A DNA stretch of 64,000 bases from Gonapodya sp. JEL0774 (taxonomy: Eukaryota; Monoblepharomycota; Monoblepharidomycetes; Monoblepharidales; Gonapodyaceae). Both the position numbers and the translations under genes were made by a program. Each line of letters opens with the position of its first letter. Positions within the stretch are counted from its first letter, which is position 1. Under the pieces are notes generated by a model. The model made no database searches, was not told where the DNA came from, and saw only the letters and a list, made by a program, of their open reading frames with translations. Below, one piece after another: positions 18,995 to 27,700 of this stretch. Where the stretch lies: NCBI GenBank assembly GCA_027604505.1, contig JADIIX010000084.1:919-64918 (forward strand). Direction: 5' to 3'.

Positions 18995-21037
18995 ATGTCT
19001 CCTGTTGCTGCTACCATGGATTTAGAGGCGGCTCTGGCTCGTATTGCTATCCTGGAGGCACAGCTCGCTCAACCATCTGCTGCAAAGCCATCGTCAAACG
19101 GACGGGGAACGGAAGCACCAAGACCGCCTCTAACTGCAAATCAAATAGAGCTTCCGGATTATGATGATGAGGAGCCGCCGTTGGAGCAGACAACCTCAGC
19201 AGATGCCTTCGCAACCTTGGAACTCAAATTGTATTCATACAGTTCTCTCACGCCTCGTCACAAGAACACCCTGTTTAAGAGACCCGTAATGGATTCATCT
19301 GTCATCATGGAGCGTGTCCGGCCCATTATTGACGATGTTCGAACTCGGGGGGATTCAGCGCTTGTGGATGCAACTCGGAAATTTGACGGCGTGGACTTGA
19401 CGGAAACAAAGGACAAACGGTGAGCATCTGCACAATATGTTACTGCGCCTGTGGACCTGCAGAGCTCGATTTCTATGCAAGAAACTTGCGCGTTGCATTT
19501 GTCCCGTTTTCCTTTCTTGATTGTCCTGCGGAAGCGATGGATCGTTGACTCCCGATCCATTTTGTATGCCAAGGTTTGCTTCAGGCCTTGGTGTTGTCAT
19601 GAATCGTCCGTACCCCCAGTCCATCATTGACTCAATCCCTGCGGAGACTCGTCAAGCAATCGACGTTGCTTTCAACAACATCAAAAAGTTCCACGAGTCA
19701 CAAATCGATTGGGATATATCTTCTGTTCAGACGATGGAAGTGAGTAAAACATGCTCGGTTAGCTGGAGAATGCGTGCCTCTATCCACATGCTTGAATGGA
19801 ACGAGGACGGACCATGATTAATTCGGCTTCCGGACATTTGTTGACATGACAATTATAATTTTCAATGCACATTAGGGTGTTTCCTGCCACCGATTCGCCA
19901 CTCCTATTTCCCGAGTGGGACTCTATGTCCCCGGTGGCACCGCCGTCCTCCCTTCCACCGCACTGATGCTCTCGGTACCCGCTCTGGTAGCCAAAGTCCC
20001 GCACGTCGTGCTGGCGACACCACCGCGCAAGGATGGAACCGTTTGCCCCGAGGTGGTTTACGTCGCAGCCAAGGCGAACGTCCAACAGATTGTTGTTGCC
20101 GGTGGTGCGCAAGCTGTAGCTGCAATGGCATACGGTACAGAAACAGTTGCAAAAGTGGATAAGATTTTTGGTCCTGGGAACCAGTACGTGACAGCAGCTA
20201 AGTTGTTGGCACAGGTGAGTATAGGCGTCCCAACTTGTGCTGCGTTTCCGGCTTTCTTAGGATCACCTCGCTTATGCTGCTTCTCTGCAACAACTTTGCA
20301 TAATTTTCATGTTTTGTTCACGTCAGAACGATTTCTCCTGCCTCCTTTCGACTGACCTTCCTGCTGGACCTTCGGAGGTCCTTGTCATCTGCGATTCCAC
20401 CGTTCCTCCCGCACATGTCGCTCTCGACCTCTTGTCCCAAGCCGAGCATGGTGCGGACTCACAAGCGGTACTTCTCACTGTTGGTGCCGATGACACTTAC
20501 GTGAAGAGCGTGATCGCTGCTGTTCAAGAAGAAGGTGCGAAGTTGCCTCGCAATAAGATTCTGAGGGAGAGTATCTCCAAGAGCTATATTGTCCGCTGCG
20601 ACACCCTCGAGGAGGCATTCGAATTTTCCAATGGGTACGCACCGGAGCACCTCGTAGTCAACGTCAAGGGTATTGGGGTACCAGAAGTAGCCAAGCTTGT
20701 AAGCAATGCCGGAAGTGTGTTTGTGGGAAGGTGGGCTCCCGTGAGGTAAGTCCATACTTGCTCTCCTCGTTTGGTTTAAGCGCTACATCTTATGTTCCCC
20801 TGTAGCTGCGGTGACTACGCTTCAGGAACCAACCACACCCTCCCGACCTACGGATACGCTCGCTCTTATAGTGGTCTGGGAACTGCCGCCTTCGTAAAAT
20901 ATGTAACGCTCCAGTCATTGACATATGGTGGACTCAAAGAGTTGGGGAAATCTGTAATGAGACTGGCTGAAGTAGAGGAGCTGAAAGCCCACGGAGAGAG
21001 CGTGAGAGTTAGAATTGAAGGAGGGGAGTATGAGTAA
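18995..21037 (+). CDS. HIS4 (HDH domain only): Histidinol dehydrogenase, stand-alone
   Basis: Catalyses the last two steps of histidine synthesis, L-histidinol to L-histidine, with NAD and zinc. Five exons (18995-19419, 19574-19739, 19876-20214, 20327-20745, 20806-21037) give 526 residues. Catalytic blocks are all present: [46 protein letters not shown] (catalytic and zinc-binding Gln/His), [11 protein letters not shown] (Glu-His base pair) and [16 protein letters not shown]. The first about 100 residues replace the PRA-cyclohydrolase and pyrophosphatase domains of typical fungal HIS4 with a short coiled stretch ([17 protein letters not shown]) and a Pro/acidic linker. The ATG at 18995 begins [12 protein letters not shown]; an upstream exon cannot be excluded but the uL15m gene leaves only 327 bp. 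Confidence 0.94.
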
Positions 21038-21266: not shown

Positions 21267-24147
21267 TCAAGCTGCATCGTACGCATCAAATGTAGACAGT
21301 GCCACCCCCAAAGCATCCATCGGCGTCATGGGGTGGCGCACGTCCATTGTAAAATAGTCAGGTCCACATCGTCCAAACTGCATGAGAACCAAATTTTCTA
21401 ATGGCCAAGACAATATGCGCTGTTGAACACAAAGCTATCATGCGCACACTGCTTGACGCACCATCGGAATCAGCAATCAACTGGAAATTCTTAATAGAGG
21501 GCATTGTTACGCGACCACCAAAGTTGAGACAATGTGATTGAGTGGCTTTGCACAGAAAACAAATCGATGGTGTGAACGCCTGTTAGGGTTTCGTTCCATC
21601 CACACGGAAATGAAACGCACCTTCACTCCAACGCGGCGGTTTGTTGCGGAGAAACAACAATTTCTCCTTTGCTTTCATCCGGAAGTCGTTTGAAATGTCC
21701 TTCGTGAATCCCTCCAACTGGAAACACAAACTTAGTGATTTCAACTTTGGAGAAGAAAGAGTGACAATCAATTACTACACACTTTATCATCAGGAATTGT
21801 AGCCGCAGGAATAGCTACACTCATTTCTCGAGGAAGAGTTGTGGTGCTCTTAACCGGACAAAATGTTAAAGAGTGGGTCGCCAAATCACTGCTCTCTCTC
21901 TCAAAGTGGTCACTCACATACTCAACCATGGATAACTCCTTCAACCCCTTGCTGGTTGCCTTGTTGTTGTAAGAACGAGCATCGTAGAGGACAAACATTG
22001 TTCGCTGAGGGTTCGCACTGAGATATGGATGAGCATTCGTGCCTAACACCAAACAGCCATGTTTCCAAAAGCGTGGACGTACCGAAGTTTCGCAATATAG
22101 TGCTTGCTTTCTTTCTTTATCTCAGCAGCGGACTCGCTGATGGAATAATTGATTCCTTTGACTTGCTTGCGTTTCTTGGCGGCTGCGATAAGTTTCTCGT
22201 CCACCTCGTTGTACAAGAAGAACGTGGGAAAGTTTTTGTCAAGAAGATTCGCTTTGCGATAGAGCTTGCATCGCAAGATAGTATTTTGAGGTATGCGTCT
22301 GCAACGATAAAAGCATTCGGTCTGATAAAGACGGGGGAAGCTCAGACGATGACATTCACCTGAAGAGTGCCCGCACACCTTCCTCTCCCCCAGCTTCCAA
22401 ACCCAACCCAGTAGCCGGGAATCCTCTACCAAATATGGGGAAGTCGACCTCTCCCTCTTTGAGAGGCGATGATTTTTCTTCGTCTTCTTGTGCTTCACCA
22501 ACTTTATCTCCACCGCCCTTTACTGTTTTGACTTCGGCGCGCTTTCTGGACCGGTCTTCTTCAACTACTGGTGCAGGTGCCACAATGGACCTTGGGTCTT
22601 CGAAATCGTTGTCTTCTTCGGGTCCTGCCTGCTCCACCGGTCCATTGCGTGCCACGTCCGGAATCTCGATTTCATCGTCCGACTCCGATTCCTCATGCCT
22701 GCTCGTATTGCGCGGAGAAGTGCTTTTCCTAGCTGGTTTCACTGGCGTTGATAAATCAGGCTTCTGTGGCGCCTCGACTGTAGCAGAGTTCCGCTTTTTG
22801 CGTGTACCTTTATCGGCGCTGTTTGATCGACGACTATCCTTTGTTTCAATTGCATTGGGTTGGCCATCAACTTCGTCCTCTGCTACAAAGCCAACCCTCG
22901 TCGCAGGGGGTCGTGGTGGACCGCTCTGCACAATGTGATTGTCCGGAATCTCGCTTCCGTCTGCGGACAACGTCAGAGAGGGCTTAGGGGTCTCTGCCGG
23001 AGAAGATTTCATTTCAGGTTGGGTCAAAGATAGTCGTTTACTCGAATGGCTGACTCTAGACTGGGGCACGTGCTGTACCACGACTGTTTTCACTTCGGAG
23101 CTCGCCTTTTGCTCTAGCTCTCGCTTCTTTTGCTCTTCTTGGAGAGCATCCAGCTGCCTCTTACGGACCAGAAATTCCTGGAAATCAGATGAAGGGACGA
23201 GTGGATTCGCGAAAGCCGCATCCACGTCAGAAGCACGGTCCGGAGTCGACGAGCGTACTAGATATTAGATCATAATCACGATTTTTAATGAGACATTGTG
23301 GGAGGTTGAATGCGCAAACCGTCCGTCCCTCACCAACACCAAAGCTTTGCTTCCGTTTTCTGGATAACTCTTCCATGAATTTCGTTGTAGCGGCGTTTGA
23401 GTTCGACTGTCTGGGCGAACTTGAGAGCCCGTCGCCCGAGTGTTGAAACGAAGAGGGATTGGCGAGAACAAAATTTGCCGGCAGCTCAACAGAGGCGCCC
23501 CACTTCGATGTGAACGAAGTGGGTTGTGCGCTACCTCCTGATATTGCACCATCGACCATGTTGATAGCTTCCAGGTTGGCAGGAGAGGGGGAGGCAACCA
23601 CCCCCAACGATTTCACGTCAGTCCTCTCCCGCGATTGTGGCTGGGGACCAGGGATATTTGGAGAATGAACAGGGAATCCAGAATGCAAGGGTGAGCCCAT
23701 GGCAAGCGATCTCGATTTCTGATCTTCCCGTTCGCCGTTTCGCTCCTTTGCAGCTCCCGGCCACACGTTAGCATCAGGCGAATTGTCGCCTGGCGCAACA
23801 TCCAGCCTTTCTTGTGATGATTGCTGAACGACAAGAGAATCATATTGTGTCTTAAGCTTCGAGTAAGACTTATAGCGTTTGGCTATCGCGTTGATGCACA
23901 AGGCCGCGAACGTCAGTCGCAACGCCCAAAAGACATGACGTCAGTAGAAAATGCAGTGGAACAATGAATTGAATGCAATTATCAACAAAAGCCCACCGAT
24001 TTCCTTCTCCCTTGCAATGTCTGTCTTGTCTGGCTTCCGTCCCTCTCTCACTTGAAAGTCGTGTTCCCAGTCTTTCAGCTCCTTCTTCAGTGCTTTTATA
24101 TCTGCTTGCAGAGCCAGAAAGTGATCTTGTGCTGTTTTCCAGGACAT
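21267..24147 (-). CDS. Sld2/Drc1 N-terminal domain fused to a tubby C-terminal domain
   Basis: Exon 1 (24147-23997) and the start of exon 2 (23882-23334) give KKELKDWEHDFQVREGRKP followed by DKTDIAREKEIAKRYKSYSKLK. This is the pattern of the Sld2/Drc1/RecQL4 N-terminal domain, which brings Dpb11/GINS to replication origins. A long Ser/Pro/Lys/Glu-rich linker fills exon 2 and exon 3 (23257-22360). From 22298 the frame enters a tubby barrel: RIPQNTILRCKLYR, FPTFFLYNE, YSISESAAEI, YIAKLR, REMSVAIPA, NKPPRWSE, CLNFGGRVTMPSIKNFQL, VLMQFGRCGPDYFTMDVRHP and an end like STFDAYDAA. Tubby domains bind phosphoinositides and carry cargo to cilia. Phases agree at the first three junctions (151, 549 and 898 nt). 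About 800 residues. Alternative: two overlapping genes, with tubby starting at an internal ATG near 23371. Confidence 0.8.
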
Positions 24148-24771: not shown

Positions 24772-27700
24772 CTACTTTTGCCTGAAGTTGCAGAAGCGCA
24801 AGCAAGCGAAGGCTGTTTGAAGCGAAACTCATATTAGCTGATGGACCATTTGCACCTAAACGTCATTTTCACTCACCAATGAGGAACATGAAAATACCCT
24901 GTGCAACGTTGTCGACGCAGTAAATCCACGACGGTGTAACTGAAACATCATCAAAGCCCGGTACGGTGTAAGTAGTACCATTCTCGTAGGTGCGGGTTTC
25001 GTCCAAAGCCAAGCTGACACCGTTAAGGAGGAAGTCGCGACCAGTATTGTAGAAGCACGTAGCGCTCCCATTGAGGGGGTTGGCGTACAAGAAATCAGCA
25101 AATCCAATCATTGAACTGGCCTGTGTACACAATGCTTCAGAATCAGGATCCAAACGTCCAACAGATTAATAACTTACAGTTAACAGGCCAGTCACGGTGG
25201 CGGTGAGGACCTTGGTGTCAGCGACGTTGACCACGGCGTATTGACCGAGAGCAACAGCCTGGCGCGTCACTTCAGTCGAAACGAGACCGAAAAGCTGAGT
25301 AACGTTGGCTGGGGCCGGGAGAGGTGTCGTGATGTTGGCGAGAACTGCTTGCGAGGTAAGCGCCTTGTAGAGGTTGCCGGCGAGGGTGTAGAGTTGCTTA
25401 ACAGTGTCGTTCTGTGCCTTGGTTGCGTATTGCCACCGTTGGAAACTGTTGATGGTGTCAACGATGGTTTTGTTGTTGATAACAGACTTGGTGACCGTGA
25501 GCGCAGCATCACCCATTCCACCGTAGGAGATACCGGTAAGGTCGAAAATGAACTTCTCGCTTTCCTTGCAGTAGGATTCCTGGCCCAACCACTCGTGGCG
25601 AATGATAGGGATGAAAACACCACGAGGGTAGCTACACAAGGGGATATCCAGGAAGTGATTAGTTAAAAATTGTAGAACCAAGAGTTGAGGAATTGTACAT
25701 ACGCAGTCCAAACGAGGAATTTCTGGAACAGAGATCCACCGGGGCGAGAGAAGAGGAAAGTGTCTGTAATGTACCAACCAGCGAGAAGGATACCCCAGTA
25801 GTAGTGGATGTTGAAAGCGGCGTTGGCGTATGGAATGGACTTCATACAGCAATTCTCGTGAGATTTCGAGGTGTCGACAAAGGATAAACGAGCACTCACA
25901 GCAGCCATGTACGCGCAGACCAAGTTCCAACCAGTAACAGCCCAGCATTCAAGGACGAAGTACAAAATGTAAAGCCCGAAGAATTCAGTGAGCCAGTTGG
26001 AAAGACTGAAAGCGATAAGAACGCAAATGGCCTGCATTGGAAGACAAACAGACATTAGACGGGGTTACTATTCTTCATCGATCGCCGGTTCAACTCACCA
26101 TCATGAAAGCCAAGAAAATGAACTCGACCAAGAAGTTGGTGGTAATGTAGAAGAATTTGTTGTAGTAACCAGCGGCCCTGTTGAGAGTTTAGGATTGGCT
26201 ATGGGTTCGCAATAGCATTTCCTTGACCAGCGAGCTCACTCTTCGTGGTAATATTGCTTCCGCTTTTCCAGCCCTGTATTGCGAAATCCAATTGTGATTA
26301 AAAAGGACAGTTCACACGCCGAGCGACGCAGGGAACGTACAGTAGGCAATAGCGGCAGATCCGAAACCAGGTGTCATGAGCTTAAGTGCAAACAGCTCCG
26401 AAATCCTATCACGGATGGAGCATGAGATGGGTGACTCATATGACACGATACCCAAGGCGAACGCTCACTTTCCACCGGAACCACCGTAAGAACGGTCTTG
26501 GCGGAAGAAGGCCAGACCAAAGAACAGGGCGGTGAAGATAGCAGCGCCCAATCGCGAAGTACTCATGACGGGGTTGCGGATGTAAATCCTGGTCTGACGG
26601 ATGAAGAGTTGCTTGATTTGTTGCCAGCCCGTCCCCTGCTGGTAGAAACCGAGGCTGTCCTTCCAGGTCTCAGCCTCATCCAGGCCGATGGGCTTGTAGT
26701 CCCGAATCGATCCCTGGCCCGAGTGAATGGCTGAAATCCGAGGAGATTGAATGGTCAGCAACATGTAAAAAGGGCTCAAGGAGGGTTGGTACCCCTGCAA
26801 CTTACCGGCAACAGACTTCTCGAGAATGTCCTTTTCATTGCTCTTCTCCCAAGCCTCAATGAGTTTGTCTGGGTTGGCAGCCTGAGCATCGGCGTAGATC
26901 TCAGCCGGGTTACCGTGGATGGGGATGCCGAGGTAGGTCTCGAAGTACGAGATACAGTCAGCAGTGCGGCCAAAGTAGCACATCCGCCCGTTGGCGAGGA
27001 GCAACAAGTTGTCGAATTGCCTCAGAATGGTGTATGACGGTTGGTGGATCGTCGCAACTGAATGGACATGGGTGAGTGAGTGCGAGGTCGAAGACACCAC
27101 CTACGAAAAGAGTCTTACTCACCACATGCGAGCTTGCGCAGCTTGACAACTTCGAGGGTGTTTTCAATAACTTCACGACCGGTGTTGGAGTCCAAACCAG
27201 TGGTCTACCAATTCAATTCAACGCCCAAGAGTGTGAATCACTCGGGACCGTGTTTCAGACTTGCCGCGCAATTCATTTACTCACAGGCTCATCCAAAAAG
27301 ACGACAGCCGCGACGGGAAGAAGCTCGACGGCAACGTTGACACGCTTGCGTTCACCGGTGGACAGACCACGGACGAGAGCGGAACCAATACGGTTGTTCT
27401 CCACGTAGTTGAGTCTCATAACGGACAACACGTCCTCAATCTGAGTGTGTGACCGTGGAGAGTCAGTCGAAGTCATAGTGAATTTCATTGCAATGCTGTT
27501 CCCCAAGAGCACTTACACGAGCGTTTCTCTGTTCGGCGGTCCAGTCAGGGGGAAGACGGAGGGCAGCGCAGAATTCAAGTGCCTCACGGACGGTAAGTTC
27601 GGGAGGGAGCAAATCGTCACTGGTGACTAAATGAGTTGAGAAGATGTGGTGATGATGAGGCGTACTTCAAAAGTGGGGCAAAAGAACATACCATAGCCGT

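Follow-up and report, generated by a model that had tools for sequence, protein, structure and literature searches.

We identified a minus-strand gene in 64,000 nucleotides of DNA from Gonapodya sp. JEL0774 (the whole stretch analysed, referred to here as the window) that is predicted to encode a Sld2/RECQL4-type N-terminal domain and a complete tubby domain in one protein. The Sld2-type domain and the tubby domain almost certainly belong to a single polypeptide. The fusion architecture, first proposed from the sequence alone, is well supported by Pfam matches, open-run shuffles and relatives, with the same architecture occurring far beyond the window; it is presumably expressed as a single transcript. 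Across the sequences compared, it is apparently a conserved feature of Chytridiomycetes chytrids, apparently undescribed and yet already visible in database annotation. Searches for papers joining Sld2 with tubby, Sld2 with chytrid, or Drc1-Sld2 with chytrid found none, in a literature set that covered few subscription papers. Found in at least six orders of flagellated fungi, the fusion connects a Sld2-type domain with a module linked to lipids and cilia.

Gene structure and domain content

The spliced model joins nine exons (151, 549, 898, 216, 100, 66, 97, 84 and 131 nt from 5′ to 3′) into one frame of 763 amino acids on the minus strand, running from an ATG at 24147 to a TGA at 21267, with an in-frame TAA immediately 5′ of the ATG. 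All eight introns (61-114 nt) have GT...AG boundaries. The lengths of the first three exons, which had been given in a first-pass annotation of this DNA, were reproduced exactly. The exons, with the evidence for each, are as follows:

23997..24147, minus strand: exon 1, containing the ATG and residues 1-50 and covering most of the N-terminal helical domain of Sld2/RECQL4 type (splice model, Pfam)
23334..23882, minus strand: exon 2, in which the N-terminal domain ends (AKRYKSYSKLK) and linker bearing the WG..LP.NF motif follows (splice model, relatives' alignment)
22360..23257, minus strand: exon 3, containing linker with the conserved DFQEFLVRKRQLD island and a 302-codon open run (splice model, alignment, shuffles)
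22083..22298, minus strand: exon 4, the start of the tubby domain, reaching the K/R pair that aligns with mouse tubby K330/R332 (Pfam, alignment)
21918..22017, minus strand: exon 5, tubby domain (splice model, Pfam)
21783..21848, minus strand: exon 6, tubby domain (splice model, Pfam)
21621..21717, minus strand: exon 7, tubby domain (splice model, Pfam)
21462..21545, minus strand: exon 8, tubby domain with TQSHCLNFGGRVTMPSIKNFQ (splice model, Pfam)
21267..21397, minus strand: exon 9, the end of the tubby domain (FDAYDAA) followed by the stop codon (splice model, Pfam)

When the region was dinucleotide-shuffled 1000 times, no shuffle reached the 302-codon open run of exon 3; the longest open run averaged 129 codons, did not exceed 275, and was at least 237 codons in six of the shuffles. 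Retention of intron 3 (donor at 22359, AG/GTGA) would bring an immediate in-frame stop and yield a Sld2-type half without tubby, an outcome that is perhaps meaningless, as any phase-2 intron with a GTGA donor behaves in this way. Histidinol dehydrogenase exons (PF00815) can be found at 19876-20746 on the plus strand, convergent with the fusion gene, and an ABC-2 type transporter exon lies upstream of it on the same strand (26468-27100, minus).

In a Pfam scan, Tub matched residues 533-758 over profile positions 3-255 of 256 (198.5 bits, 2e-58), and Drc1-Sld2 scored 35.1 bits against a cut-off of 28 (1.6e-8). Families other than these two were not found at E <= 1, and a RecQ helicase domain was absent. 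A profile of the N-terminal helical domain also matched the RECQL4 structure 2kmu (E 4.6e-5). The domain carries the motifs K.LK.WE..F, GRKP..DI and YK.Y.KLK, its core residues are kept across relatives in the alignment, and the domain alone scores 56.7 bits in P0029. These matches agree with the first-pass assignment of the N-terminal segment to Sld2/Drc1 and RECQL4, and the nearly full-length Tub match with its call of a complete tubby barrel. Foldseek returned seven chains at E <= 0.001, all of them tubby or TULP1 structures. The RECQL4 structure 2kmu was unlisted for the N-terminal part in the second structure search, the list of which was filled by tubby matches, so that the N-terminal part was barely tested by it.

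The Sld2-like part recognisably comprises the N-terminal helical domain only. A profile search gave a Sld2 match in none of three linkers (360-478 aa), and none of eight matching proteins contained a Drc1-Sld2 stretch beyond profile position 336 of 416, a search that a short diverged motif could escape. The linker is long and mostly disordered, with a few conserved short motifs; its DFQEFLVRKRQLD island is conserved and is helical in the model of the relative P0002. A second conserved motif, LP.NF...GPI.T, was considered as a Sld2 motif and rejected, with no Pfam match in any of four fragments, and an NCBIfam scan of two relatives gave no match. Enrichment of CDK sites was likewise discarded as weak: the linkers of 35 rows (omitting P0031, which is too short, and non-chytrid rows) contain 345 S/T-P sites versus 295 expected by shuffling. 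The window linker contains 12 versus 7.4 expected, a count reached in 4.5% of 200 shuffles.

The positions of mouse tubby K330 and R332 are occupied by K and by K or R, respectively, in 34 of 36 rows, including the window; the two exceptions are P0031, whose model breaks off within the segment, and P0036, which is without a tubby part. Changes at these residues in mouse tubby are described as lowering PI(4,5)P2 affinity and nearly abolishing clustering (PMC10445746). Retention of this basic pair makes lipid binding by the tubby domain of the fusion plausible. At the second lipid site, of which residues 301-305 of mouse tubby are given as a part (PMC10445746), RKRKK is present in 19 of 36 rows and KKRKQ in the window.

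Occurrence in chytrids and in the Gonapodya genome

Used as a query, the spliced protein matched 35 sequences, made up of 30 named chytrid records, three unnamed records (P0013, P0024 and P0033) and two others, an oomycete tubby and a mollusc tubby, both without PF11719. In precomputed domain annotation, PF11719 and PF01167 are both present in 28 of the 33 chytrid or unnamed relatives. Two Synchytrium endobioticum records and Boothiomyces fall below the Drc1-Sld2 cut-off (20.8, 17.2 and 18.5 bits), and a Drc1-Sld2 match was absent from Siphonaria P0021 and from P0033 in the Pfam scan. P0021 has an odd start that can still be read as the last part of the N-terminal domain, and the gene model of P0033 is apparently incomplete. 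Gaertneriomyces P0002 (691 aa) shares 37% identity with the window protein in an alignment over 99% of the latter. Spizellomyces is represented by a fused protein of Spizellomyces sp. 'palustris'; no fused gene of Spizellomyces punctatus, a species reported to be transformable (PMC7213984), was among the matches. Kelch-type families beside Tub were seen only in P0027 and P0031 (Polyrhizophydium) among the first-search matches, where they probably come from a neighbouring gene merged into the model. Precomputed annotation also places PF26116 on many of the fused proteins and on the partial P0036; the Pfam scans run on relatives did not return this family, which may represent a more recent model for the N-terminal domain.

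All nine genera whose taxonomy was retrieved (Gaertneriomyces, Globomyces, Synchytrium, Cladochytrium, Rhizophlyctis, Quaeritorhiza, Obelidium, Dinochytrium and Polyrhizophydium) belong to the class Chytridiomycetes and represent six orders, with one genus for which no order is given. The remaining named relatives we take to be chytrids. Database names of the fused proteins are mostly 'Tubby- protein 3', 'Tub family' or hypothetical, which means that a replication-type domain is present in chytrid proteins labelled 'Tubby- protein 3'. Sensitivity was low in two further protein searches, which were aimed at stand-alone Sld2 from other early fungi. The second search gave 11 matches from 113 candidates and missed the known fused P0001, P0002 and P0005; the third gave seven among 7992 scored candidates, a low yield that we think came from low-complexity words. 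The fusion may therefore also occur outside these chytrids, and other chytrids may have a stand-alone Sld2. Two more chytrids were added by the second search. Physocladia P0037 is fused and is listed in UniRef as 'DNA replication regulator SLD2'. The record of Quaeritorhiza P0036 is flagged as partial and stops at PKLF, which corresponds to the joint between exons 3 and 4 in the window (ALF/R). This ending suggests that the intron at the linker-tubby joint is conserved.

Within the Gonapodya genome (assembly completeness not stated), no second Drc1-Sld2 (PF11719) domain was found at E <= 10, and the N-terminal domain of a relative, searched at the same threshold, found the fusion gene only. 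A second tubby of ordinary type is present on contig C16 (L008:3658-5096), with a short acidic N-terminus by open frames and the ending SFDSKIACE, which makes the fused tubby an extra copy. The two tubby domains share ~32% identity, the C16 domain having been joined approximately by eye. In a tree of tubby domains the 31 fused-type domains form a clade that excludes the C16 copy (support 96/93), and the nearest partner of the window row is P0024 (87/83). This tree was midpoint-rooted, its two outgroups are long branches, and it left out P0029, P0031, P0032, P0035, P0036, P0037 and P0039 by choice, as well as P0038, which was missed by the start pattern.

The same genome contains CDC45 by profile search (no control genome matched) and IFT57 (three archaeal controls matched below the cut-off), the latter suggesting a flagellated organism, together with PI-PLC-Y and PIP5K. 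PTCB-BRCT domains are also present; the family matches 10 of 14 prokaryote control genomes, and so no Dpb11 was identified. An MZB domain, of the kind present in the Hrq1 helicase, can be found on another contig, in a family that matches eight of the 14 controls, and so no particular gene is named. Searches for Sld3 and IFT43 gave no match in the genome or in any control genome.

The first-pass annotation had looked to other chytrid proteins for both domains, a pairing that the 28 relatives display, and had set against the fusion a separate complete Sld2 and a separate complete tubby in close relatives; in this genome, of the two, only an ordinary tubby was found. It had also offered the alternative of two overlapping genes with an internal tubby promoter near 23371. 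On such a reading, adjacent or overlapping Sld2-type and tubby genes would have been joined wrongly by gene models. Exons 2 and 3 do contain internal Met codons N-terminal to the tubby domain (112, 159, 220 and 316; a start near 23371 would be Met220, with its codon at 23376), and read-through of intron 3 meets a stop at once. Against this, the frame of exon 4 contains no ATG from its upstream stop to the tubby domain, which therefore needs an upstream exon, and the four Met residues are matched by M in only 2, 1, 4 and 1 of the 28 rows of alignment A1 (window row included). Since both domains also recur in single protein models of relatives, and motifs in the linker between them are conserved, the two-gene arrangement is unsupported and we regard it as very improbable.

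Candidate roles of the fusion

Our preferred explanation, held tentatively and as a whole given somewhat less than an even chance, is that a single transcript encodes a chytrid counterpart of Sld2 that is held at the membrane by its tubby domain and released to the nucleus. One transcript would give one protein with a homeodomain-like helical domain of the Sld2/RECQL4 type, a disordered linker and a complete tubby domain, the last having taken the place of the remainder of Sld2. Through its tubby end the protein would be held or concentrated at a PI(4,5)P2-containing membrane, either the plasma membrane or the zoospore flagellar base. Once PI(4,5)P2 is lost or hydrolysed, for example when the zoospore encysts, the protein would be released for a nuclear role as replication begins. 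The fusion is probably the chytrid counterpart of Sld2. A mechanism of lipid tethering and release for its tubby part is possible, although we lean slightly towards doubting it, and a physical coupling of flagellum loss to S phase by the fusion seems decidedly unlikely. We would give equally little credence to the full scenario of a lipid-gated origin-firing factor retained throughout a class of flagellated fungi, in which the sole Sld2-type protein of chytrids is tethered to PI(4,5)P2 in the zoospore and released at encystment, linking flagellum retraction to S-phase entry.

In the Spizellomyces zoospore, the flagellum is reported to be retracted within 1 h and the first division to occur at 8-12 h (PMC7213984), and in R. 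globosum an increase in cell-cycle and replication categories is reported from germling to immature thallus (PMC8887899). A membrane-held zoospore protein that is freed later would fit this timing, and could offer a route for timing the first S phase in a cell that loses its flagellum before division. The absence of a Sld2 match in the linkers, S/T-P counts little above expectation and the disputed animal counterpart argue against a simple Sld2 reading, and KKRKQ in place of RKRKK at the second lipid site of the window also counts against the preferred explanation.

A real fusion could instead have an N-terminal domain that has left replication and serves as a homeodomain-like DNA- or protein-binding module in a membrane-tethered nuclear regulator or adaptor, with initiation relying on another factor such as DONSON or an undetected Sld2. 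The confinement of the Sld2 likeness to the N-terminal domain, the lack of clear CDK-site enrichment, the homeodomain-like bundle at the RECQL4 N-terminus (PMC4757822) and the listing of tubby domains among fungal transcription-factor families (PMC5415576) would all suit such a role. It is rather unlikely in our estimate: the genome search found no other Drc1-Sld2 domain, though Sld2 is called essential in yeast (PMC4757822), and the core residues of the domain are kept across relatives. The fusion could also be primarily a flagellar transport adaptor, in which the DFQEFLVRKRQLD linker helix would act as a TULP3-like IFT-A binder, the tubby domain would carry cargo and the N-terminal domain would be an additional binding site. 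Such a role would draw on the reported binding of IFT-A by the N-terminal helix of TULP3 (residues 19-44; PMC10066299), on the conserved linker island that is helical in the model and on IFT57 in the genome. A 37-position profile of the linker helix, however, matched no solved structure at E <= 10 in a set that included the TULP3 chain 8fh3_I, a weak test given so short a profile. With a separate ordinary tubby in the genome and the Sld2-type domain left unexplained, we consider the adaptor role improbable.

Comparison with Sld2, RECQL4 and tubby proteins

Sld2/Drc1 binds the BRCT repeats of Dpb11/TopBP1 in a CDK-dependent manner and is required for origin firing. It is described as a key CDK target for the start of replication in yeast, with an animal counterpart that is debated and that may not be RECQL4, DONSON having been proposed (PMC10570026); a second, DNA-binding homology region is placed at its C-terminus (PMC4757822). 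The fusion resembles yeast Sld2/Drc1 (PF11719) in the three motifs of its N-terminal domain and differs from it in a linker without detectable similarity and in a C-terminal end that is a tubby domain. RECQL4, whose N-terminus (1-54) is described as a helical bundle resembling a homeodomain (PMC4757822), likewise has a homologous helical domain at its extreme N-terminus joined to another module, which is a RecQ helicase in RECQL4 and tubby here. The complete barrel and the basic pair of the PI(4,5)P2 pocket are shared with tubby and TULP1-3 (PF01167; 1c8z, 1i7e, 8fh3), from which the fusion is set apart by the Sld2/RECQL4-type domain at its N-terminus; a TULP3-type IFT-A helix was not detected in it. 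The ordinary tubby on contig C16 has a Tub domain in common with the fusion, but no Sld2-type domain was found there, and it ends in FDSKIACE whereas the fusion ends in FDAYDAA.
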